Origin: Methanococcoides sp. AM1
GTDB taxonomy: Archaea > Halobacteriota > Methanosarcinia > Methanosarcinales > Methanosarcinaceae
Reading direction: 5' to 3'
DNA: 64,000 bases
NCBI RefSeq assembly: GCF_900774055.1
Contig: NZ_CAAGSW010000001.1
Span: forward strand, 327,797 to 391,796
Shown here: positions 47,897-61,196 of the stretch, piece by piece
Numbering within the stretch: position 1 is the first letter of the stretch
Layout: every line of letters starts with the position of its first letter
Position numbers and translations under genes: made by a program
Notes under the pieces: generated by a model
What the model was told of the DNA's origin: nothing
Database searches by the model: none
What the model saw: only the letters and a program-made list of their open reading frames with translations

Positions 47897-50353
47897 TTAT
47901 ACCTCTATCATATTCCCATCCAGTACATCCCTTTCACTGACATTTACTTCTTCCACAACGTCAACATAGGTTACCTTGTAAGGTCCAACCGGCATAGTAT
48001 CGAATTGTGTCTCCCCTTCAATTGGCCCTTGAGTGGAATATGGCACCGTAAATGAATATGTTCCATCCGAAACGGTTGACTGGGAATATACGAAGGTCCT
48101 TCCAATGTTGGTCAGTATGGTTACCGAAATGGTCACATCCTCGCCTTCAGGTGCTTCACCAACGACCTGTGCGCCCTCAGCATACTCGAATATCTTGACA
48201 TATCCGGTGTTTTCCAGAGCGAGATTGCCTTCAAAGAGCGCATTGTAAACATTCTTGTAACCAGTCTCTGCAGAATTGCCAACAGGAGATTCGTGTACCA
48301 TACGATACTGTTTCAATCCCCTTGCATCAAAGATATGTAGACGTGATTCCATGGAATTGAAATACCTTGGACCAGGCACTGTCTGCATTCCCATATCTGT
48401 TTGTACAGAAATGTAATAGTCAGCCGTATCAAGGGTCCATGCACTCATTGCATAGAACTTACCTGTTGCCATCTCCACATCAGAGACGATGTATCTTGCA
48501 CCGGCCTTCTCCGGGTCAGGGTGTACTGCCTCAAGAACTGCCGTAGCTTCTTCTTCGGATTGGGCTGTGAAGAATGTTGATGCACCGGGCTTGTTCTCTT
48601 CCTCAATGCTGTTTCTGCGACCTCCGACTCCCTGCTGGAACGGATTGGCATTTGGAATACGGTGTCCGATCACTTCTATCCAGTGGCCATAGTCCCACCA
48701 GGACATCACACCGTACGCAGTGTCAGGGTACTGGTAACTTTCACCTTCTGCAGGAATATCATAGCTCTCGTAATAGTCCAATCCCGGATCAGGAGTGTTG
48801 GAATTCAGCCACATGGTAGATTCGATCCAGTAGCCGTTAGGACCACCTGTGTACTGGGACTGTTGCATTGACATGTTGTAACTTGGATACATGAAGACCA
48901 GTATGATCACCAGAACTGAGAGCAAATGCCATATCTTGATGTTTTTAATATCAAACTTGTCCTTTAATTTGAGATCCTCAAGAAGGTCTTTCCAGCCCGC
49001 AAGCTCCAGGATCTTGATACCAACGAAGGCAGACAGAATTGCAGCGTTCACTGAATAATAGTATGCGAAACGGTTCTGCTGGAGCATTGCCCAGATGATC
49101 ATGAAGGTCCAGACCAGCAAGAAGGTTCTTTCAGGAGTATTGTTCTTCTTGTATGCCTCGTAACCGAGGTAGATTATTGCAATGAGGGAGATATATCCGA
49201 GGGTTGTGAAGTTGCTCCAGAAGGGAGCGAGGGAGAACTGACCGCCTACGGAGAGTAATGGGGATGCTTCGGCTATGGTGAGGCCGCCTCCGGTTCGTGT
49301 GAAGTAACTTGCTAAACTTGATATTAATCCGTAAGTTGATGGAGAGAATATTTTTGCAAGCCCGATCCCTACGATGGATAATAATGCTATTGAAAGTGGA
49401 TAGTAGTATTTTTTAAGATTTCGTTTATTTAACTCAATGGAGATGAGGGTGAAGAGAGGGAATGCTATGATTCCTGCGAAGAGACCTTTTATCAAGAGGC
49501 CTTTGGAGGAAAGGTTAGGCACCATGAGTACCATTAGTAAGGCAATACCAAATAGTATCACGCCTCCGACTGCCAGATGATCGGTCGAGCGGTTGTGCAT
49601 GTGATCTATTACATGCTGCACTGTGATGTAGATACCAAGTATAAAACTGAAGAATATTGCCCCATACCATGCGAGTGAATAAGCACCAAGTGAAACTCCT
49701 GCAAGTATAAAGTACGGGAGGGTAGATCTTAATGAATCAAAGTTCCTGTTACTGATGCTTTCAAAGGTAATCGGATGTTCACGGCCAACCTTCAATGCCA
49801 TTATCATGAACATAGCTACAATAGTGGTGAGCAGGGTCTCAGCGATGTGGTGATCATTGAACCCCAGTATAGACCTTGAGAGAAACTGCCCCGGTGCAAT
49901 TGCTATTAATAAAGCTGCAAGCAAACCGACCCTGCGATCAAACAACCACTTAGCTACGAAGTATGTTGGGATTACTACTATTGCACCCAGAAATGCAGGG
50001 TAATATGCACAAACTTTGTAGATCAGATCTTGACTTGGGTTTCCAGATCCGAGAATCCAGATGATTGCAGAGAGGACCAGATCGAACAAGGGTGCAAAGA
50101 TTTGAACTGTACCACTAGGATATTGTGTGTAAGCATCAAACCATAGAATATTCGGGAAATTATGCACAATGGATTCTACGTTCCGCAAGTGATACCAGGG
50201 ATCGTTGCCACCAAAGCGTACAAATCCATTTGATAGAAATACGCTTGCTTTGGGTATAGTTCTGATATATAATGCTATCAGGAATGAGATAAGCACCCCT
50301 GCAATATAAGGTAAGGATTTAATAATTTGGGTTTTTTTGTTTTCACCAGTCAT
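47897..50353 (-). CDS. aglB: AglB oligosaccharyltransferase (STT3 family)
   Basis: A protein of 818 residues. The N-terminal half has about eleven to thirteen membrane helices, with the FVRFGGNDPWYHLRNVE segment holding the first DxD-like acidic site and ILGFNDHHIAETLL the second. The outer domain carries the WWDYG motif (VMSWWDYGHWIEVIG) that binds the Asn-X-Ser/Thr acceptor. A beta-rich C-terminal domain follows. AglB transfers the finished glycan from a dolichol carrier to S-layer proteins, archaellins and pilins outside the cell. I start at the ATG at 50353 (MTGENKK), with GAGTGA upstream. It is next to the glycan synthesis genes on the same strand. Confidence 0.95.
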   Translation of the reverse strand: MTGENKKTQIIKSLPYIAGVLISFLIALYIRTIPKASVFLSNGFVRFGGNDPWYHLRNVESIVHNFPNILWFDAYTQYPSGTVQIFAPLFDLVLSAIIWILGSGNPSQDLIYKVCAYYPAFLGAIVVIPTYFVAKWLFDRRVGLLAALLIAIAPGQFLSRSILGFNDHHIAETLLTTIVAMFMIMALKVGREHPITFESISNRNFDSLRSTLPYFILAGVSLGAYSLAWYGAIFFSFILGIYITVQHVIDHMHNRSTDHLAVGGVILFGIALLMVLMVPNLSSKGLLIKGLFAGIIAFPLFTLISIELNKRNLKKYYYPLSIALLSIVGIGLAKIFSPSTYGLISSLASYFTRTGGGLTIAEASPLLSVGGQFSLAPFWSNFTTLGYISLIAIIYLGYEAYKKNNTPERTFLLVWTFMIIWAMLQQNRFAYYYSVNAAILSAFVGIKILELAGWKDLLEDLKLKDKFDIKNIKIWHLLSVLVIILVFMYPSYNMSMQQSQYTGGPNGYWIESTMWLNSNTPDPGLDYYESYDIPAEGESYQYPDTAYGVMSWWDYGHWIEVIGHRIPNANPFQQGVGGRRNSIEEENKPGASTFFTAQSEEEATAVLEAVHPDPEKAGARYIVSDVEMATGKFYAMSAWTLDTADYYISVQTDMGMQTVPGPRYFNSMESRLHIFDARGLKQYRMVHESPVGNSAETGYKNVYNALFEGNLALENTGYVKIFEYAEGAQVVGEAPEGEDVTISVTILTNIGRTFVYSQSTVSDGTYSFTVPYSTQGPIEGETQFDTMPVGPYKVTYVDVVEEVNVSERDVLDGNMIEV

Positions 50354-50690
50354 ATGCTTCACTCGCATTAAGTGCATATTGATTATTTCCAACACTGAAG
50401 AGATAGATAACAAAATGTACAGGATCTAGATTTCGATTTTACCTCGCAATCTAGCAAACCCTACACGTTAACTCAGGTAATGAACTTTTATGATACAGAC
50501 TTACCTGAATAATGAAGATATCCACACGATGTTAAAGGAAACTTTCTTTTAAATTTGCAATGTATTAATTCATCATTCGATATATAACTATTAGTGAATG
50601 ACTATACATTTATTACAAATATATTGTTACAAATTAGAGATTATAGCTCCAAACATACACAATTAATTTTAAAATCCGATGATCATTAAA
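50354..50690. promoter_or_regulatory. Intergenic region upstream of aglB
   Basis: AT-rich and without a gene. On the minus strand a TATA-like TTATATATC lies near 50579-50587, but that would give a leader of >200 nt; another AT-rich run near 50480-50500 is nearer. aglB therefore seems to have its own promoter, apart from the glycan operon upstream. Confidence 0.35.
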
Positions 50691-51597: not shown

Positions 51598-52533
51598 TTA
51601 TTTCTCACTTTTATACCACTCATACGTTTGCATAATTCCATTTCTGAGCGGTATCTTAGCTTCCCATCCAAGCCTATTCAGCCTGCTAACATCCAACAAC
51701 TTCTGAGGAGTACCGTCAGGTTTCGATTTATCATAAACGATCTCACCCTCATATCCAACAATATCTCCTATGAGTTCAGCAAGCTCCCGAATGGTGATAT
51801 CTTTTCCAACACCTATATTAACAAACTCACCTATGTCGGACTCATCGTAGTTTTCCATAAGGTGAACACAGGCATCTGCCATATCATCCACGTGCAGGAA
51901 CTCGCGCCTTGGTGAACCTGTACCCCAGATTACAATCTCCGGTTCATCATCGATCTTTGCCTCATGGAACTTGCGGATAAGTGCAGGCATCACGTGGGAT
52001 GATTCAAGGTCAAAATTGTCATTCTGTCCATAAAGGTTTGTGGGCATTACCGACATGAAGTTTGTTCCATATTGCTGATTATAGTGCTTGCACAACCTTA
52101 TGCCTGCTATCTTTGCTATTGCATATGCTTCATTTGTAACTTCCAGTTCCCCGGTAAGCAGGTATTCTTCCTTCATAGGCTGAGGTGCAAACTTGGGATA
52201 GATGCAGGATGAACCAAGGAAAAGAAGCTTTTTGACCCCATAGGTGTATGCAGCATGGATCACGTTTGCCTCGATCATGAGGTTCTCATAGATGAATTCG
52301 GCCGGATATGTGCTGTTTGCAAAGATACCACCTACTTTAGCTGCTGCCAGAAAGACATATTCAGGTTTTTCGGTTTCGAAAAAATTGTTGACAGCCTGCT
52401 GGTTTATGAGGTCGAGATCGTTGTGAGTGCGGGTTATGAGGTTTGTGTAACCTTTGGATTCCAGTTTTCTTATTATGCCCGAACCCACCATGCCACGGTG
52501 GCCAGCGATATAGATTTTAGAGTTGAGGTTCAT
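51598..52533 (-). CDS. GDP-L-fucose synthase-like epimerase/reductase
   Basis: A 311-residue short-chain dehydrogenase fold. NAD(P)-binding GHRGMVGSG at 11-19, the catalytic serine in [16 protein letters not shown], and Y136-x3-K140 (YAIAK) match Fcl/WcaG, which converts GDP-4-keto-6-deoxy-mannose to GDP-L-fucose. The [11 protein letters not shown] and [14 protein letters not shown] segments also fit. The partner GDP-mannose 4,6-dehydratase is not in the window. It follows the HAD phosphatase by 38 nt. Specific product could be another 6-deoxy sugar. Confidence 0.9.
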
Positions 52534-52571: not shown

Positions 52572-53210
52572 TTATTTCAACAATTCTGGTAATTCGCGTA
52601 AATCTGATATGATTGCTATATTATATTCTTTGAATGGATTGTTATGCTCAGCTGAAACCCTTCCAATAAAAGGAATATCTGCTTCAAGTGCACCATTTAA
52701 ATCTGTAATTGCATCACCAATAAAGACGACCTGATCTTTTGTATAACCCCTATCTTCTAATATACATTTTATTAAATTTCCTTTGGTTTCAGGTGACCCA
52801 TAAGTTCCTTTGAAGTATTTATTAATACATTTTCTATCAACTATATCTATTAATTCATCTTCCGGAGTACCTGATACAATATACAAATCAATTTTTTGAT
52901 AGTAATCTTCAAGGAAATCTTTTGCTCCAAAGACCCATGGTGCATCTATCACATTTTGAATTACAAGATTTGAAAATTTATTCCCTAAATCAGTTCTGAT
53001 TTCATCGTTTATAGCCTTTTCAAGAAAGTTTTCGTAAATGTAATCAAATTTCTTAAACCTTGAAACCCCGCCATTTGCTAAATGGTATTCTACAACTTGA
53101 TCTACAATTTCTGTCCCTTCATCTTCAAAGAGTTTAGCAAATGCTTTCGTTTTGATATCAACAGATTCTACAAGCACTCCATCAAAATCAAACAATATCG
53201 CCTTTAACAT
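52572..53210 (-). CDS. HAD-superfamily phosphatase of the glycan cluster
   Basis: A 212-residue HAD hydrolase. Motif I LFDFDGVLVES opens the protein, LYIVSGTPEDE is motif II, GSPETKGNLIKCIL motif III and VVFIGDAITDLNGALEAD motif IV. The start is the ATG at 53210, after AGGTGT; it overlaps the cyclase stop (53204). In sialic and Kdo-type pathways a HAD enzyme removes phosphate from the 3-deoxy-ulosonic acid phosphate before CMP activation. This one could do an equivalent job here. The substrate is not shown by sequence. Confidence 0.85.
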   Translation of the reverse strand: MLKAILFDFDGVLVESVDIKTKAFAKLFEDEGTEIVDQVVEYHLANGGVSRFKKFDYIYENFLEKAINDEIRTDLGNKFSNLVIQNVIDAPWVFGAKDFLEDYYQKIDLYIVSGTPEDELIDIVDRKCINKYFKGTYGSPETKGNLIKCILEDRGYTKDQVVFIGDAITDLNGALEADIPFIGRVSAEHNNPFKEYNIAIISDLRELPELLK

Positions 53211-53893
53211 TTTTTTACACCTGCAACTATTGTACAAGGAGCACCATCTGCACCTTTTACCCTAATTGGTAATGCACAACAAGATACTATTTCCACATCA
53301 TCTTCCAATATACTTAAGTCCATATCTTCAATCAACAAGATCGGATTGCCGTAATCGTCTGGATCTAAGAAGGAACGATGCGCTTTGCGACCTTCATCTC
53401 TGTTTTGCCAGGAGGATATGGATATGGAATCTATTCCAATTGCACGAAGATTTGGATAATTCTTTCTTAAAAAGATCCCTAGTTCAGAAGATAAACCCGG
53501 ATTTTCACTCCAGTACTTTGTTTTGTTTCTGTTTTTGCAGAATCCTGTATAGATAAGGAGTAAATCTGTTTCTTTTGGTATTTTTTCAAAACTTTCATCT
53601 ACTTCTACACACATAGTTCCATTTATTGTTGGTTCTTTTATTACCGAAATTTTTGAAAAGTTCCAAAATGTGGGTGGAAACTCATCAATTGATTTGCCAT
53701 TTGAATAAAAATGATTTGGGGTATCGATATGGGTTCCTATATGATTTGCCAATTGCCAACGAGAGGTATTGCAACTGTCTCCTTTTGTTACGTTTTTTAT
53801 AAATTCTCTTTTAAACCCCTCACTATTTCCATATGAGGGTGTAGAAGTATCTAAAGGATAAGACAACCAAACAAAATCGATATTGTCATTCAT
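53204..53893 (-). CDS. Cyclase-family metal-dependent hydrolase
   Basis: A 229-residue protein with the cyclase/kynurenine formamidase metal site NHIGTHIDTPNHF, where His and Asp residues bind zinc or manganese. Further family features are LLLIYTGF and AIGIDSISISS near residue 155. Known members open amides or lactones (for example N-formylkynurenine, isatin). Within a sugar-acid cluster it might open or form a lactone or lactam, or remove an N-acyl group. It overlaps the epimerase gene before it (8 nt) and the HAD gene after it, so it belongs to the pathway. Exact reaction unknown. Confidence 0.8.
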   Translation of the reverse strand: MNDNIDFVWLSYPLDTSTPSYGNSEGFKREFIKNVTKGDSCNTSRWQLANHIGTHIDTPNHFYSNGKSIDEFPPTFWNFSKISVIKEPTINGTMCVEVDESFEKIPKETDLLLIYTGFCKNRNKTKYWSENPGLSSELGIFLRKNYPNLRAIGIDSISISSWQNRDEGRKAHRSFLDPDDYGNPILLIEDMDLSILEDDVEIVSCCALPIRVKGADGAPCTIVAGVKKC

Positions 53894-54815
53894 TTTTTGT
53901 TCCTTCTTCGATTAAATACCCCAATTCTTCGTGCACATTTTCGTGAATTGAAGCATAGATCTCAGACATAATGTTCAACAATCCCTGACCCATGTCTACG
54001 TAATAATTGCTTGTAAGCTTTTTACCTATCCTTGGATTAAATGAATAAGGAGTCACCTGATAATGAGTTTCAGATTTTGAATTTTCATAAATAATTTCAA
54101 CATCTCCACCTGACATTTCGTTGACCATATTTAACAGATCTTTATACTTCAACGTCTGGTTTCCAGTCAATATAACATGTTGATTTTCATAATCAGGATC
54201 AAGAATCTCTACGCTGGATCTTGCCGCATCTTCCACGTGGATATACTCCCGTATCTCTTCGCCTGTCCCGTGATATTCTATTTTTTTGGTTGTGAGAGCT
54301 TCTTTTATTAAACGATATATGCTATTGCGTTCGTCTGCACGATTGCCATACAAGGAGCCATAACGCAAAATTGTGTAGGGCAGATCAAACAGCTTGTTAT
54401 AATCATCGATGAATGATTCCGCGGATTGTTTGCTGCTCCGATAAAAAGAACCTGTCTGACTGTATACATAAACTGAACTGGAGAAAATAAATCGTTCAAC
54501 GCCTGCATTTTTTGCAGCTTCGAGAACCATCACATTCCCCAAAATATTATATTTAATTGTGTCAATAGGCCTTTTAACACATTCATCGATGTCGGCAATA
54601 CCTGCCAAATTATATACTATGTCACAACCTGCCACCGCATTTTCAACTGATTCTTTGTCCAGTATATCACCAACGATCATCTCCTGCCCATCTTTGAGAT
54701 GCGGAGAAGTTGTGATGTCAAATATGGTTACATGATATCCACTATCCGTTAAAGCATCTGCAATATGGCTTCCCAAAAACCCTGACCCGCCAAAAACAAT
54801 TACTTTTTTGCTCAA
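53886..54815 (-). CDS. NAD-dependent sugar epimerase/dehydratase
   Basis: A 309-residue extended SDR. The Rossmann start VIVFGGSGFLGSHIADAL, the catalytic serine in IFSSSVYVYSQ and the YRSSK pair fit nucleotide-sugar epimerases or dehydratases. GSLYGNRADERNS and HGTGEEIREYIHVEDAA (near 170-195) are also characteristic. The start is TTG with GAGGTG upstream and overlaps the stop of the 2-hydroxyacid dehydrogenase. It probably modifies a nucleotide-linked sugar of the glycan; the direction and substrate cannot be told. Confidence 0.87.
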   Translation of the reverse strand: MSKKVIVFGGSGFLGSHIADALTDSGYHVTIFDITTSPHLKDGQEMIVGDILDKESVENAVAGCDIVYNLAGIADIDECVKRPIDTIKYNILGNVMVLEAAKNAGVERFIFSSSVYVYSQTGSFYRSSKQSAESFIDDYNKLFDLPYTILRYGSLYGNRADERNSIYRLIKEALTTKKIEYHGTGEEIREYIHVEDAARSSVEILDPDYENQHVILTGNQTLKYKDLLNMVNEMSGGDVEIIYENSKSETHYQVTPYSFNPRIGKKLTSNYYVDMGQGLLNIMSEIYASIHENVHEELGYLIEEGTKNE

Positions 54816-55783
54816 AACAACACCTCGTTTTTCAATTTTTCATTACTGTTATATCGAATAATTTCATCTGTAGCTTCAAGTTCCATCCTTTGCCTGGACT
54901 CTTTTGTGCTTGCTCCCATGTGACATGTGAGCACCACTGTTTCACATTGATTTAATGGACCATCATATGGCTCATTTTCGAAAACATCAACCGCTGCTCC
55001 TGCAATCATTCCTTGTTGCAATGCATCAACCAAAGCAGATTCATCCACTATTGGCCCCCTAGCAGTGTTGATTAGTATTGCAGTAGGTTTCATCTTTTCA
55101 ATTGCCTTATCATCAACTAAATGATATGTGCTTTTAGTGAGTGGTACATTTAAAGAAATTACATCAGAGTTTTCCAGTAAAGTCCTTTTGTCGACCCATT
55201 CAATTCCCATCATGTGACCAAAGGCCATATCCGGTTCTATGTCATTGGCCATTATTTTAACATTGAAAGGCTGCAGCAGGTGTGCCAGTGTTTTTCCGAT
55301 ACGCCCCATGCCGATAATTCCCACAGTCTTGCCATATAACAGTCCGCCCATATGGCGATGCCATTTCCCTTCCCTTAAATGACGATCTGTAGCAGTTATC
55401 ATTCGCAGACAATCAAACATAAGTCCTATACAGAGTTCTGCCACAGCCAATGTTGGTGCATCAGGTGTAAATGCTATTTTCACATCATGCATCTTTGCAA
55501 GATCAAAATCAATTCCATCCAACCCAATTCCCACACGTGAAATCAATTTGAGATTCGGTGCATTTTCAAATACAGAAGAATCGATTATCTCAGTACCAGC
55601 TATGAGTGCATCGCAATCTTTTATCTGTGTTGCTAACTCTGATGTCGTTATTTTACGACCATATGGATTGAGTCCATAGCTTATTCCTTGTGCTTCCAAA
55701 AGATCTAGAGGCTTACTGGAAATTTCACCAAATGGATGAGTTGAGATAAACACTTTCTTTATAGATGACGCTTTATCCATCAT
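54812..55783 (-). CDS. D-2-hydroxyacid dehydrogenase
   Basis: A 323-residue NAD-dependent dehydrogenase of the phosphoglycerate/glycerate type. Key regions: ISRVGIGLDGIDF, the dinucleotide fold GKTVGIIGMGRIGKTLAHLL, NTARGPIVDESALV and the catalytic His in LTCHMGAST. It reduces a 2-oxo acid or oxidises the D-2-hydroxy acid. Next to an HpaI-type aldolase this hints at handling of pyruvate-, glycerate- or ulosonate-like compounds rather than serine synthesis. It starts 1 nt after the aldolase stop and overlaps the epimerase start. Its true substrate is unknown. Confidence 0.87.
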   Translation of the reverse strand: MMDKASSIKKVFISTHPFGEISSKPLDLLEAQGISYGLNPYGRKITTSELATQIKDCDALIAGTEIIDSSVFENAPNLKLISRVGIGLDGIDFDLAKMHDVKIAFTPDAPTLAVAELCIGLMFDCLRMITATDRHLREGKWHRHMGGLLYGKTVGIIGMGRIGKTLAHLLQPFNVKIMANDIEPDMAFGHMMGIEWVDKRTLLENSDVISLNVPLTKSTYHLVDDKAIEKMKPTAILINTARGPIVDESALVDALQQGMIAGAAVDVFENEPYDGPLNQCETVVLTCHMGASTKESRQRMELEATDEIIRYNSNEKLKNEVLF

Positions 55784-55784
55784 A

Positions 55785-56543
55785 TCACATCTCTTTTATT
55801 TTCTCAATCGAATTCCTGCACCCTTCTCCTAAAAACAAGATATCCAAACTATGTGCTATAAAGCGATAGCCTTCGTCTACCTTTTCTTTAAAATCATCAA
55901 CTGTTGGTGGTATCACATGATAACCGGAAAGTGCATCGAGCCTATTAGATATCTCTTTTACTTTTTCGAGTGCCTCCACTACATCAGGATGATCAAACTG
56001 CCCTGGCACTCCAAGTGAACCTGAAAGATCATAAGGACCTATGATAAAACCATCAACGCCATCTACAGAGAGGATCTCTTCTAAGTTTTCAACAGCTTTT
56101 ATATGTTCCACTTGCACAATAACAATACTTTCTTCATCATTCCATTCTTTGTATTCTTCGAATGATTCTCCATACCCCTGTGCACGGGCCAGACCAACAC
56201 CACGTATGCCTTTTGGCGGATACTTGACAGATGATACAGCTTGTTCTGCATCTTCACGGCAGTTTACCATAGGCACTATAACACCGTGAGCTCCCGCATC
56301 CATTACTCTTTTTATGAGATTTGGATCATTTTTACCTACCCTGACAAGAGGCACACACCCTGCAAGTTCAATTATCTGGATCAATTGTTGGGCTTGGTGC
56401 AATGTGATCGCACTGTGTTCCATATCCACGGTAAGCCAATCATATCCTGCTCTGACCATAATTTCAGCTATTGAGGGGTGCCCCAATGTGATCCAAGAAC
56501 CAATTGTTAATTCCTTATTTTTTAATTTTTCCTTCAGCGTCAT
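55785..56543 (-). CDS. HpcH/HpaI-type class II aldolase
   Basis: A 252-residue TIM-barrel aldolase. The active-site residues are visible: His in VDMEHSAITLHQ, Arg in PLVRVGKNDP, and the metal-binding acidic residues in VQVEHI and GPYDLSGSLG; KGIRGVGLARAQGYG is another signature. HpaI enzymes join or split pyruvate (or related oxo acids) and an aldehyde, giving 4-hydroxy-2-oxo acids, the skeleton of 3-deoxy-ulosonic acids. The ATG at 56543 follows GAGGAG at good spacing, 3 nt after the previous stop. In this cluster it may take the place of NeuB/KdsA-type synthases. Confidence 0.88.
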   Translation of the reverse strand: MTLKEKLKNKELTIGSWITLGHPSIAEIMVRAGYDWLTVDMEHSAITLHQAQQLIQIIELAGCVPLVRVGKNDPNLIKRVMDAGAHGVIVPMVNCREDAEQAVSSVKYPPKGIRGVGLARAQGYGESFEEYKEWNDEESIVIVQVEHIKAVENLEEILSVDGVDGFIIGPYDLSGSLGVPGQFDHPDVVEALEKVKEISNRLDALSGYHVIPPTVDDFKEKVDEGYRFIAHSLDILFLGEGCRNSIEKIKEM

Positions 56544-56545
56544 TG

Positions 56546-57823
56546 TCACTCCTCACCAGTTTCGATTTGTCTCTTATTTAATGCTGGAACATATGAAGGT
56601 GTTAAAGAATAGTATTGTATCCCCATAGACTCACCATATGAAATCAGTTTCTCAAGATATTTGCAATGGGTTTCATAATAATCTTTATAATCCCTATCTC
56701 TGAAAAAAGAAGGATGGGTTTCAAAAGCCGTTTTCATAAGGTCATCATATTGCACAGAAGAACTGTGTTTCCAGAAATATTTTTCATTTGGTTCTCTTCC
56801 ATCTGCACCAATAATGAACACTTTTTTGGCTACTGCAGAAGCAATTGGCACCATTAAAAAAGTTAAAATGTTCGAGGATTTTTTTACATAAAATTTATCA
56901 ATTGAGGGTATATTCAAAGATCTAACAGAAGGCATGCCTATTAATTTACTTTTAAGTTCAGGATAATGAGCAAGTAATAGAGGCATGGCCATATCAGGAA
57001 CCATCACAAAGCATCCATATTCCCTGACCACATCCAGAACATGATCCCTGAATTGTGCTGAATATTCACAAGGGCTAAAATGGAACACAGGATCCGCAAA
57101 AACCAGTAGATCAGGTCCATTTACAGACTCCAAAAAAGTATCATTTTTCACAGTACTATTGCAGATTACCTTGAAACAATCGTCCCCATAATCAAATTCC
57201 TTGTATCGATCAAAAGAAGGACCTGTTGCGAAACAACAGGCTTTATGTTTATACTTATTCTCTTCGAGTAGGTAAGAGAGATTTTGTTTTGAAATTGATC
57301 TGAATTGTTCAATTTCTTTTTTATCAAATGTCTTATAGTATCCATCTTTCCATATGTTAGCTTCTTCAAAAGAGAAACAATATGGATCGATTATCATTGT
57401 TTTATGTAATCTCAAAAATATAGCAGGGTCGCGAAAAGCTTCAGTTCTCGTAACGAGTATTAAATCGGAATTAAATTTATCTCTTGCTTCATTTTCGTCA
57501 ATAAAGACAACATTGCTTAGACTATTCAGATAACACCGTTGGTTAGGCGTAGCGGATAGTGATTTAGGATCGATATCTTTCAAATTTTCAGATACCGTCA
57601 CAAATATCGAAAGATTCTCCTTAGAAGGGAATCCCCAAGCCAACCGATTGATATAGTCTGCTAATTTATTCTTATCATCAATTGCCGGATAAACTAAAAT
57701 GGAATTTACAGACCCGCCTATGAATTTATCTGCGATTATTCTAGTACCAGCATAAAGCAAGTAAATCCGGAATTTTCTTTTAATAGCTGGAAGATCTCTT
57801 TTTCCATACGCCACTTCACTCAT
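56546..57823 (-). CDS. DUF115/sialyltransferase-like glycan protein, copy 1
   Basis: A 425-residue protein with a clear paralog at 59928. Around residue 195-206 is ACCFATGPSFDRYKE and near residue 350 FIIGADGREPNEKYFWKHSS. A GxGPS motif followed by a nucleotide-fold domain recalls DUF115/MAF proteins and GT42 sialyltransferases, which use CMP-activated acids. The N-terminal ~190 residues form a separate domain of unknown type. It overlaps the CMP-sugar synthetase gene by 4 nt (ATGA), the natural supplier of donor. I therefore suggest a transferase for the CMP-activated sugar. The family link is tentative, from short motifs only. Confidence 0.6.
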   Translation of the reverse strand: MSEVAYGKRDLPAIKRKFRIYLLYAGTRIIADKFIGGSVNSILVYPAIDDKNKLADYINRLAWGFPSKENLSIFVTVSENLKDIDPKSLSATPNQRCYLNSLSNVVFIDENEARDKFNSDLILVTRTEAFRDPAIFLRLHKTMIIDPYCFSFEEANIWKDGYYKTFDKKEIEQFRSISKQNLSYLLEENKYKHKACCFATGPSFDRYKEFDYGDDCFKVICNSTVKNDTFLESVNGPDLLVFADPVFHFSPCEYSAQFRDHVLDVVREYGCFVMVPDMAMPLLLAHYPELKSKLIGMPSVRSLNIPSIDKFYVKKSSNILTFLMVPIASAVAKKVFIIGADGREPNEKYFWKHSSSVQYDDLMKTAFETHPSFFRDRDYKDYYETHCKYLEKLISYGESMGIQYYSLTPSYVPALNKRQIETGEE

Positions 57824-58500
57824 AATTTATTCCTTAATTGTTTATAAAGTGTCTCAGCCAGTATAAAATCTTCCGGTTCATCTATATCAATGGATTCAAG
57901 CTTGTTCATTTCAAACATCTGTGGTTTCAAGCCAATTCGCCGATTCCCAGTATTTTTGAAAGATTCTCTGGAAAAAATATAGACGTTCGAATTTTCCTCA
58001 AACAAAGGAGGTAAATCCTGTGTTCGGAGAAGTTCCTGAGGATTATGATTAACTGGTTCACCATTTTGCCAGTAAAGACGTGTTTGTAAACGATTTACAG
58101 AAAACAAAGAGTCGAATTTGCTCAAATTTCTAAAATATGTCTCTATGGCACAATCAATGGTATCTGTTGTCAGCAGTGGATTAGTACTGTGAGTCTGAAG
58201 AAAATGTTCTCCTTCAAATTTTGATATGTCATGGCCTATGATATCGTTCATAGCCACGAGATCACCCATTAATTCTTCAGGACGTTCAATTATTCTCACA
58301 TTGTCAAAATGGGATATTGCATCCTCTGAGATCTGTTTGCTGTCAGTGTTGATGCACACTTCTTTTATGTATTTGGATTGAGTCAAGGATTCCATTATTC
58401 GATGGAAGAGAGGTTTGCCGCAGAAGTCTCTCATATTCTTGTTAGGGACTCTTTCTGAATGTTTTTTCATTGGGAGGAGAGCTATAATATTTTTGTTCAT
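57820..58500 (-). CDS. CMP-sugar (acylneuraminate-type) cytidylyltransferase
   Basis: A 226-residue nucleotidyltransferase of the NeuA/KdsB kind. ALLPMKKHSERVPNKNMRDF carries the R-x-P-x-K-N signature; FCGKPLFHRIMESL follows, and the acidic site QTHSTNPLLTTDTID and IDIDEPEDFILAE lies as in CMP-NeuAc synthetases. It activates a sugar acid with CTP. The start at ATG 58500 has GAGG upstream; the longer frame begins inside the overlap with the GT4 gene. A decayed second copy lies at 61200-61638. The identity of the sugar is open: no NeuB or KdsA is present nearby. Confidence 0.85.
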   Translation of the reverse strand: MNKNIIALLPMKKHSERVPNKNMRDFCGKPLFHRIMESLTQSKYIKEVCINTDSKQISEDAISHFDNVRIIERPEELMGDLVAMNDIIGHDISKFEGEHFLQTHSTNPLLTTDTIDCAIETYFRNLSKFDSLFSVNRLQTRLYWQNGEPVNHNPQELLRTQDLPPLFEENSNVYIFSRESFKNTGNRRIGLKPQMFEMNKLESIDIDEPEDFILAETLYKQLRNKL

Positions 58501-58508
58501 TATATGCC

Positions 58509-59783
58509 TCAATTAATTGTTTTGGAAATTTCGATCAATTTACTTGCAACATTTGACCAACTTTGTTCTTGCTTCATATTAGATAGGCCAATTTTGAAAG
58601 ATTCAATCTCCTTTTTGTCCAGTTCAAAAAACCTCTCAATTGAATCTACAAAACTGTTGATATTTTCAGCTTCAAAAGTAAGTCCTAAATTAAATTTATT
58701 AATAAATTCACCAATCTGCCCATGTTCTGGTCCTATGACAGGTAGACCAAACTCCGCAGCATTTGCCAGAACGCCACTCGCACCTATAAAACTTTTGTTA
58801 TAAGGTAGTACTAATACATCTGCTGCAGAAAAATAATTCTGGTAATCTCCGTATGAAGAATTATCTTCTAGTGATATTCGTGTGTAGGAATTATCCCATC
58901 CAATAGAACTGATCAACGAATCAACACTGTAATCTAGAATATGAGACATTGATCCTGCGAGTAGGAAGAAATATTTTTGCTCATCTATTTTTTTCAAAGA
59001 TTCAATTATTAGATCAATACCTTTGTCCTTTCGCATGGTTCCAATAAACAAAATAATTTTCTTATTCGTATCTATATTTAAGTTTTTTAATGCTACCTTT
59101 TTGTCAATCATTTCACAATTTGTTGCCAGACCATAGGGTGTATAGAATAATTTGTCAGGTTTCAGCTGTACCTTATCTTCATAAAATTCATACAGTGCTT
59201 TGCTATGAAATAGAATATTTATCTTATTTAGCATTATATAGTAATATATTCTGTACAAGAAGTTGATTCTTTTTGGTAGTTTTGTATTTCCATTTGTGTA
59301 TACATGGACGTCTACTAATGTATTCTTAGGAATTATACCAAAAAGTGATGATATGAAAAGTCCAATATTGCGGGGGAAATCATGAATGAATATTAAATCG
59401 TAGTTTTGACAGTCATTATTTAGTTTGATTGTAATAAAAATAAGAACCGTTTCCAGACTATCTTTTATTCTTAATGTGACATGCCGCGATACTTTTAAGA
59501 GATTTTTCGAAATTATACCTATAGAGCTGATGTTGTTCAATATATTGTTAAATCTCCCCATTGTATTTACAAAAAAAGGGAACATAATATAATCAGAAAT
59601 AAGTTTGTTCTTTAAATCATATTCGCTAATCCAATTGTGTCCAGTAAAACCATTATGCATACCTTCATTTATTACACCTTTAATAGTGAGTTCTTTTACA
59701 ACATTATTTGAAAAAGATGAATGGTGTCCAGGTAAATGTAGTTGAGGCATTAAGTGGAATATTTTTGTATTTTTCCCATTCAT
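58509..59783 (-). CDS. GT4-like glycosyltransferase
   Basis: A 424-residue GT-B transferase. The C-terminal domain has ILFIGTMRKDKGIDLIIESL, the YFSAADVLVLPYNKSFIGASGVLANAAEFGLPVI region, where the usual E-x7-E is altered, and EFINKFNLGLTFEAEN. The N-terminal domain is AT-rich coded and shows HLPGHHSSFSNNVVKEL. It adds one sugar to the lipid-linked glycan in the cytoplasm. It is the first gene of the overlapping series that continues with the CMP-sugar synthetase 8 nt downstream. Sugar unknown. Confidence 0.82.
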   Translation of the reverse strand: MNGKNTKIFHLMPQLHLPGHHSSFSNNVVKELTIKGVINEGMHNGFTGHNWISEYDLKNKLISDYIMFPFFVNTMGRFNNILNNISSIGIISKNLLKVSRHVTLRIKDSLETVLIFITIKLNNDCQNYDLIFIHDFPRNIGLFISSLFGIIPKNTLVDVHVYTNGNTKLPKRINFLYRIYYYIMLNKINILFHSKALYEFYEDKVQLKPDKLFYTPYGLATNCEMIDKKVALKNLNIDTNKKIILFIGTMRKDKGIDLIIESLKKIDEQKYFFLLAGSMSHILDYSVDSLISSIGWDNSYTRISLEDNSSYGDYQNYFSAADVLVLPYNKSFIGASGVLANAAEFGLPVIGPEHGQIGEFINKFNLGLTFEAENINSFVDSIERFFELDKKEIESFKIGLSNMKQEQSWSNVASKLIEISKTIN

Positions 59784-59927: not shown

Positions 59928-61196
59928 TTACTTTTGTCTTTTTCCCAGTGCTGGAATGAAGGATAGCGTCAAAGAAATATATTTTTTGCCTAATGATTCT
60001 CCATATTCTACTAATTTCTCCAAAAATAAACAATGTTCTTCATAATAATCTTTGTAATCCCTGTCTCTAAAAAATGAGGGATGGGTTTCAAATGCTGTCT
60101 GCATTAAATCACTATATTGTGCTGAAGAACTGTGTTTCCAAAAGTATTTTTCATCGGGATTTCTTCCATCGGCTCCAATTATAAAAATTTCATTTGCAAT
60201 TGCTGAAGCTACTGGAAGCATAAAAAGTGTCAATATATTAGAAGATCCTTTTAGTACATAGTTTTCAGGAGTTGGGAAATTGAACTTACTTCCAACTGGC
60301 ATCCCAATTAAATAATCCGTGAGTTCAGGGTAATGGGCAAGCAACAACGGAACAGTAACATGCGGTACCATCACGAAACATTTATATTTTTCAACTACTG
60401 CTAATACATCGTCCCTAAAACAAGCTGAATACTCACAGGGACTAAAGTGAAAGACAGGATCGGCAAATACCAATAAATCTGGTTTTTTAATGTGCTTTAA
60501 AAACTTTTCGTTTTTCACCGTACTGTTACAAATGACCTTGAAGCTCTTTTCTTCAAAATCAAAGTCTCCATATCGGTCAAATGAAGGACCTGTAGCAAAA
60601 CAGTATGCTTTTGTATTATGTTTATTTTTTTGTAATAAATTTATATAATTTCTCTTAGAAAGAGATTCAAATTCTAGTAGCTCACTCTGAGTGAATGCCT
60701 TATAAAATCCAGATTTCCAAACATTTGATTCTTCTAATGAAAAATATTGCTTGTCAGCTACGATTGTTTTATTGAGGTTCAGGAGGATTGATAGATCCAA
60801 TAAAGAAGAAGATTTAGTTATTAAGATTAAATCAGCTTCTGACATTTTGGTTTCATCTGGGCTAACAAGATCAATATATATGGAATCTTTCAAATAATTT
60901 CTTTGAGTAGAAGGAGGTTTTAATTTACTAATATCAATATCTTTGAGTTCTTTTGTAACACTTACCTTTAGATCTAAACCATCTTTATTTGGAAATCCCC
61001 ATGCCAGACGATTGAGGAAATCAGCCAATTCGTCTCTACTTTGAATTGATGGATATGTCATTATTTTATTAACTTGCCGATTATTATTTTTGGTTAGGAT
61101 TTGAAAGACTTTGCGGAAACCAATGTAAAAAAAATTGACTATTGATCTACGTTTAATGGCCGCAGTATTCCTTTTCCCATATGCAATTTCACTCAT
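59928..61196 (-). CDS. DUF115/sialyltransferase-like glycan protein, copy 2
   Basis: A 422-residue paralog of the protein at 56546, alike over its whole length: same start (MSEIAYGKRN), CFATGPSFDRYGDF, DLLVFADPVFHFSPCEYSA and IIGADGRNPDEKYFWKHSS are shared. The catalytic-looking motifs are intact, so both copies may work, perhaps on different acceptors or linkages. Upstream lies a decayed copy of the CMP-sugar synthetase gene, in the same order as at copy 1. A segment containing both genes was therefore duplicated. Function is inferred as for copy 1. Confidence 0.6.
   Translation of the reverse strand: MSEIAYGKRNTAAIKRRSIVNFFYIGFRKVFQILTKNNNRQVNKIMTYPSIQSRDELADFLNRLAWGFPNKDGLDLKVSVTKELKDIDISKLKPPSTQRNYLKDSIYIDLVSPDETKMSEADLILITKSSSLLDLSILLNLNKTIVADKQYFSLEESNVWKSGFYKAFTQSELLEFESLSKRNYINLLQKNKHNTKAYCFATGPSFDRYGDFDFEEKSFKVICNSTVKNEKFLKHIKKPDLLVFADPVFHFSPCEYSACFRDDVLAVVEKYKCFVMVPHVTVPLLLAHYPELTDYLIGMPVGSKFNFPTPENYVLKGSSNILTLFMLPVASAIANEIFIIGADGRNPDEKYFWKHSSSAQYSDLMQTAFETHPSFFRDRDYKDYYEEHCLFLEKLVEYGESLGKKYISLTLSFIPALGKRQK

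Follow-up and report, generated by a model that had tools for sequence, protein, structure and literature searches.

Characterised KdsB and NeuA/PseF enzymes use 2-ulosonic acids, and the described systems closest to the locus studied here are the NeuB-type nonulosonic pathways (N-acetylneuraminic acid [Neu5Ac], legionaminic acid and pseudaminic acid) and the 3-deoxy-D-manno-octulosonic acid (Kdo) pathway (KdsD, KdsA, KdsC, KdsB). In this study, we analysed a 64,000-nt stretch of Methanococcoides sp. AM1 (NZ_CAAGSW010000001.1, positions 327,797–391,796; hereafter the window), in which a cassette of eight minus-strand genes occupies positions 52572–59783. The cassette encodes a GT4 glycosyltransferase, a PseF-like cytidine triphosphate (CTP)-transferase of the CTP_transf_3 family (cytidine monophosphate [CMP]-sugar synthetase; gene CMP), a DUF115-like protein, an aldolase of the HpcH_HpaI family (ALD), a D-2-hydroxyacid dehydrogenase of the 2-Hacid_dh family (DHD), an extended short-chain dehydrogenase/reductase of the Epimerase family (SDR), a ‘cyclase’ hydrolase (Cyclase, PF04199; CYC) and a haloacid dehalogenase-type phosphatase (HAD_2; HAD). 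A PseF/NeuA-family CTP-transferase and a predicted Maf/GT42-like CMP-sugar transferase are shared with the NeuB-type pathways; however, NeuB and the amino-sugar enzymes are missing, and their places are taken by a metal aldolase of the HpaI type and a 2-hydroxyacid dehydrogenase. A HAD phosphatase is common to the cassette and the Kdo pathway, and many relatives also have a KdsB-like CTP-transferase next to the aldolase, but KdsA gives way to the HpaI aldolase and a putative oxidative branch is added. We favour, with moderate confidence, the explanation that CMP, ALD, DHD, SDR, CYC and HAD form a mobile module for a CMP-activated ulosonic-type acid sugar made without NeuB or KdsA, which the DUF115/Maf-like protein would transfer to the AglB glycan.

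The cassette is no local accident and recurs far beyond chance. The aldolase is present in 9 of the 186 genomes of the host's order (E 1e-20), and in seven of the other eight genomes it is of the close type, with the same genes around it in different orders. In a genome of the same genus (G091) the six genes are contiguous as CMP-ALD-DHD-SDR-CYC-HAD, and a plasmid of the alphaproteobacterium Acuticoccus carries ALD-CMP-DHD-HAD-SDR. A scan with the aldolase alignment of one genome per species (84,980 species), from which the best 80 loci were taken, revealed that the module genes almost always surround aldolases of more than about 44% identity and not those below. Profile comparison of 56 module-clade aldolase loci with 22 other HpaI loci found a CTP-transferase in 54/56 and 0/22, respectively (Fisher 1.9e-17, a p-value that, like any from this comparison, is indicative only, because the clade cut, the aldolase's own profile score, was picked after the neighbourhoods had been seen). 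The corresponding figures were 47/56 and 3/22 for DHD, 33/56 and 0/22 for SDR, 33/56 and 0/22 for HAD, and 29/56 and 0/22 for a lactonase-type hydrolase; these counts are of loci, not of independent events, and the majority come from metagenome-assembled genomes. Without exception, the 275 module genes share the strand of their aldolase, CMP and ALD are within 150 nt of each other in 34 of 54 loci, and the aldolase clade in the tree spans archaea and many bacterial phyla. The supply line for an activated acid sugar described in an earlier note on this DNA is supported in these respects: the aldolase is tightly tied to the CTP-transferase, and the genes are conserved together across phyla, although their order is shuffled. 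Searches of phages with the CMP protein and of plasmids, at the DNA level, with the whole cassette gave no match.

The earlier note had described a supply line without NeuB or KdsA, and among the findings that would speak against it had named beforehand a NeuB or KdsA homologue elsewhere in the genome that is co-conserved with the cluster, and genes that are not conserved together. Our statements on the genome as a whole are based on searches with families and proteins. No match to NeuB (PF03102) or to KdsA/DAHP_synth_1 (PF00793) was found in the host genome, which is 99.9% complete; control searches were positive in 9/14 and 11/14 genomes, respectively. With no PF03102 match in the genome the system does not belong to the NeuB-dependent nonulosonic acid pathway, and with no PF00793 match it does not belong to the Kdo pathway. 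The synthetase of the cassette is the sole member of its own family in the host genome at E 1e-20. Elsewhere, loci that also hold a NeuB pathway can carry a separate CTP-transferase for NeuB (L029, L034, L035, L050, L064 and L077).

Comparison of the loci showed a constant core of CTP-transferase, aldolase and DHD, in which the CTP-transferase slot is filled by one of two unlike subfamilies, PseF-like (as in the window) or KdsB-like. Alongside the core stands one of two supply modules. Module A (30 loci, including the window) comprises SDR and HAD, mostly with CYC, while module B (15 loci) comprises at least two of MocA, a GmhA-like SIS protein and an AroB-like TIGR04425 protein, usually with a classic SDR; no locus holds both at the thresholds used. 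Two Dehalococcoidia loci, L025 (type A) and L028 (type B), are 85%, 81% and 74% identical in ALD, CMP and DHD, respectively. Because of this likeness, and because the aldolase tree does not separate A from B, the core is a unit whose supply side is swapped. The idea that aldolase divergence tracks module type was rejected, as the B labels are scattered on the tree (14 changes; 298 of 500 shuffles were as low).

The AroB-like ‘sugar phosphate phospholyase’ (TIGR04425), with MocA, the GmhA-like SIS protein and SDR, takes the place of SDR/HAD beside the same aldolase core; loci of this type are L028, L034, L048, L050, L052, L054, L055, L058, L063, L071 and L080. HAD occurs in 1 of the 15 type B loci, a scarcity that fits a phospholyase that would shed the phosphate itself, and the products of this version could be carbocyclic sugars. 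Bradyrhizose of Bradyrhizobium was considered as a possible clue to the version with AroB, but no link was found in the two papers followed. In L074, a MocA dehydrogenase adjoins HAD and replaces SDR. Large surface-carbohydrate transferases (TIGR04326-like and TIGR04331) recur beside the KdsB-like version, for example at L076:5453–7255 and L029:6692–8458, and may serve it as transferases instead of DUF115. Class I methyltransferases and B12-radical SAM proteins also recur near the module (L015, L016, L017, L018, L037, L047 and others), which suggests that the sugar is often methylated.

The catalytic motifs of the cassette enzymes are intact. ALD is an HpcH/HpaI class II aldolase (PF03328, 136.3 bits against 25), in whose module clade D42, H45, R70, D84 and E148 are conserved in 62/62 members and D174 in 61/62. 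Its fold family, metal site and catalytic residues are those of the class II pyruvate aldolases HpaI, GarL and RhmA (YfaU), but it forms its own clade, marked by L120, Y173 and H211, lies in a biosynthetic gene context, and scores under the NCBI functional (equivalog) cut-offs (HpaI TIGR02311, 199 against 368.8 bits; GarL TIGR03239, 180.3 against 406.75; RhmA NF007521, 157.8 against 441). CMP falls in CTP_transf_3 (PF02348, 92.4 bits against 22.6) and under the PseF equivalog cut-off (TIGR03584, 85.3 against 205.7 bits); its nearest solved structures are CMP-Neu5Ac synthetases, and R21, K25, N26, Q106 and D209xD211 are invariant in 26 copies. DHD, whose R242, E271 and H288 are invariant in 51 copies, has phosphoglycerate dehydrogenase (PGDH) and glyoxylate/hydroxypyruvate reductase as its nearest solved structures. 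Also invariant are GGxGFxG and Y125xxxK129 of SDR (41 copies), the metal-binding motif HxGTHxDxPxH of CYC (26 copies), and DxD (D17, D19), K152, D175, D179 and the GxSR cap motif of HAD (37 copies). CYC scores far under the arylformamidase (kynurenine formamidase) cut-off (TIGR03035, 48.6 against 223.05 bits).

In six loci (L051, L053, L056, L057, L059 and L069) a 6-phosphogluconolactonase homologue (Pgl) lies between SDR and HAD, the place of CYC in close relatives, and five of these six homologues pass the curated NCBI cut-off. L056, of Winogradskyella tangerina, holds a type A set of CMP, ALD, SDR, Pgl, HAD and DHD. Among type A loci, CYC is found in 17, Pgl in 5 and both in none. Since Pgl homologues replace CYC in the same slot, the ‘cyclase’ is probably a lactonase, and SDR-CYC-HAD would thus convert a sugar phosphate to an aldonate. 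The outline of the supply line in the earlier note stands, the module being conserved and NeuB and KdsA absent, but the roles it gave HAD and the ‘cyclase’ are not borne out in that form. It had them finish the product, whereas the Pgl replacement makes it more likely that both prepare an aldonate upstream; it also gave no role to the dehydrogenase, which belongs to the conserved core and accompanies the CTP-transferase even where the aldolase is missing.

From these gene contents and families we infer the individual reactions, their order and the kind of sugar formed. SDR would oxidise a sugar (phosphate) to a lactone, CYC (elsewhere Pgl) would open the lactone to an aldonate, HAD would strip the phosphate from the sugar-acid intermediate, and DHD would produce a 2-oxo acid. 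ALD, taking pyruvate or hydroxypyruvate as its donor, would then make the C–C bond of the 2-oxo acid head, the CTP-transferase would activate the product, and the DUF115/Maf-like protein would move the CMP-sugar to a glycan that AglB would put on protein. In vitro, HpcH aldolases use pyruvate and some also hydroxypyruvate as donor, with 2-hydroxyaldehydes (e.g., D-erythrose) and some ketones as acceptors, so the proposed C–C bond is chemically reasonable (PMC7610986). The aldolase is likely to be the ulosonate maker. Several points weigh against this scheme. The proposed order offers the aldolase no obvious aldehyde as acceptor but a ketone; the nearest solved relatives of SDR are nucleotide-sugar epimerases, which does not speak for a sugar-phosphate dehydrogenase; 8 of the 30 type A loci have no lactonase in view; and, to our knowledge, PF04199 is no characterised sugar lactonase family. 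Finally, aldolase-free relatives, designated type C, indicate that the CMP/DHD pair does not always need an aldolase, and mainly for this reason the aldolase is not credited alone.

The type C loci, in two genomes of the host's order (G071 and G158), consist of CYC-CMP-DHD-classic SDR, the last being aldose/glucose 1-dehydrogenase-like. Plasmids of Thalassovita and Gemmobacter carry CMP-DHD with MptE-like genes, and a Pararhizobium plasmid carries a CMP-DHD pair, none with an adjoining aldolase. Aldolase-free CMP and DHD genes of these two order genomes and alphaproteobacterial plasmids were recorded at L124:7832–10850, L125:7430–10477, L021, L022 and L023. Such relatives suggest that DHD itself forms the 2-oxo acid by an oxidative path, and they bring up an alternative for the module as a whole, namely that DHD rather than ALD makes the ulosonate (aldose to lactone by SDR, to aldonate by CYC/Pgl and HAD, to 2-ulosonate by DHD, and to CMP-2-ulosonate by CMP), while the aldolase would serve some secondary purpose, for instance trimming, exchange or recycling. 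D-2-hydroxyacid dehydrogenases do include 2-ketogluconate reductases, and a PDB entry so named was matched. Nevertheless, we think this unlikely for types A and B, where the CTP-transferase has no closer partner than the aldolase, whose catalytic residues are complete; the type C dehydrogenases, like those of the other aldolase-free relatives, form a separate clade and so may use a different substrate. That the aldolase donor is hydroxypyruvate made by DHD from glycerate or 3-phosphoglycerate, while A and B prepare different acceptors for the same core to give non-3-deoxy ulosonic acids, would agree with the nearest relatives of DHD (PGDH and the glyoxylate/hydroxypyruvate reductases), with the use of hydroxypyruvate by some HpcH/HpaI aldolases (PMC7610986) and with the swapping of supply modules between L025 and L028; but the product of SDR and lactonase would be an acid instead of an aldehyde acceptor, and we hold this to be rather improbable. 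A bystander set of catabolic or acyl-decoration genes travelling with surface-polysaccharide loci, with no joint pathway with the CTP-transferase, is very improbable in view of the cross-phylum co-occurrence, the strict strand agreement, the mutually exclusive modules and the lack of a CTP-transferase in all 22 non-clade HpaI loci, even though HpaI and D-2-hydroxyacid dehydrogenases elsewhere belong mostly to catabolic families, glycan loci are patchworks, and the locus in the window is AT-rich relative to its flank.

The DUF115-like protein of the window has no Pfam match by itself. MptE-like PF01973 matched 3 of 7 family members weakly (best E 0.0022), under its gathering score, and the window protein not at all. 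In an AlphaFold2 model built from a five-sequence alignment (predicted local distance difference test [pLDDT] 83; a single-sequence model with pLDDT 41 was discarded), residues 160–425 (the C-terminal 265) gave VIA Z scores of 12.6 with Maf, 11.5 with MptE, 11.4 with Cst-I and 10.6 with Cst-II, above most unrelated rows, and Z scores of 8–9 with human sialyltransferases. This part thus shares the fold of the Maf flagellin glycosyltransferases, MptE and the GT42 enzymes, although identity is 10–17% and the N-terminal half is different. In several phyla (L026, L036 and L038) a homologue separates CMP from ALD, other loci of the module repeatedly hold MptE-like genes, and the DUF115-like gene occurs in 3 of the 186 genomes of the host's order, all with module-type CMP. 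The protein is the likely user of the CMP-sugar as its transferase, and the second copy in the window suggests two transfer steps or two acceptors.

The features of the locus are listed in Table 1. The close packing of eight genes described in the earlier note was found as given, all eight open reading frames being in place. Counted from the HAD end, the intergenic spacings are −34, −8, −4, +1, −4, −4 and −4 nt, and the first overlap shrinks to about −7 nt if HAD starts at Met10. Among module loci of the host's order, GT4 has a close match (83% identity) only in the locus of the sister genome. AglB lies downstream of the cassette on the same strand; upstream lie the second DUF115-like copy and then FkbM and a flippase. 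Fcl, on the opposite flank, is a neighbouring sugar supply outside the module, and its partners Gmd and ManC lie just beyond the window end. The G+C content is 24–41% over 50–64 kb and 42–47% over 40–50 kb; an AT-rich glycan locus of this kind resembles acquired DNA, as in acquired glycan loci.

Table 1. Genes of the cassette and its neighbours in the window
Feature	Coordinates	Strand	Evidence
HAD_2 phosphatase	52572..53237, likely start Met10 at 53210	−	PF13419 5.6e-15
PF04199 ‘cyclase’/kynurenine-formamidase-like metal hydrolase, probable lactonase	53204..53893	−	PF04199 1.2e-17
Extended SDR (Epimerase family), probable sugar(-phosphate) dehydrogenase	53886..54815	−	PF01370 9.4e-43
D-2-hydroxyacid dehydrogenase, PGDH/glyoxylate-hydroxypyruvate reductase-like, core gene	54812..55783	−	PF02826 4.4e-57
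HpcH/HpaI class II 2-oxoacid aldolase, module-specific clade, core gene	55785..56549	−	PF03328 1.3e-39
DUF115/MptE-like protein, Maf/GT42 fold, probable CMP-sugar transferase	56546..57823	−	Predicted structure
CMP-sugar synthetase (CTP_transf_3, PseF/NeuA-like), core gene	57820..58512	−	PF02348 4.7e-26
GT4 glycosyltransferase, locus-specific	58509..59783	−	PF00534 8.5e-16
Second DUF115-like protein, paralogue of 56546–57823	59928..61196	−	57% identical, full length
AglB oligosaccharyltransferase, probable end user of glycan	47897..50413	−	PF02516 1.9e-33, AglB_core-like, AglB_L1 (STT3/AglB domains)
GDP-L-fucose synthase (Fcl)	51598..52533	−	NF047922 518.5 bits, cut-off 500

We found no published description of the module in the open-access literature, and the glycan should most likely bear an acid sugar of a kind that we have not found described. 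Tentatively, the module could represent a third general route to CMP-ulosonic acids beside those of NeuB and KdsA, in which a sugar, once oxidised to an aldonate and a 2-oxo acid, would be coupled by a metal aldolase to a donor of the pyruvate type; the resulting acid sugar would be C-branched or of some other undescribed structure, and carbocyclic in the AroB-like version. The module offers concrete candidate enzymes for a possible new ulosonic acid route and a possible new kind of CMP-sugar, and its cultured hosts include Winogradskyella tangerina, Syntrophomonas wolfei subsp. methylbutyratica and Mucilaginibacter segetis. NeuB and KdsA are the usual markers by which genome surveys look for acidic sugars of cell surfaces; with a widespread module that is free of both, such surveys may overlook acid-sugar glycans in methanogens, anaerobic methane oxidisers, anammox relatives, Campylobacterota, Bacteroidota and other groups.

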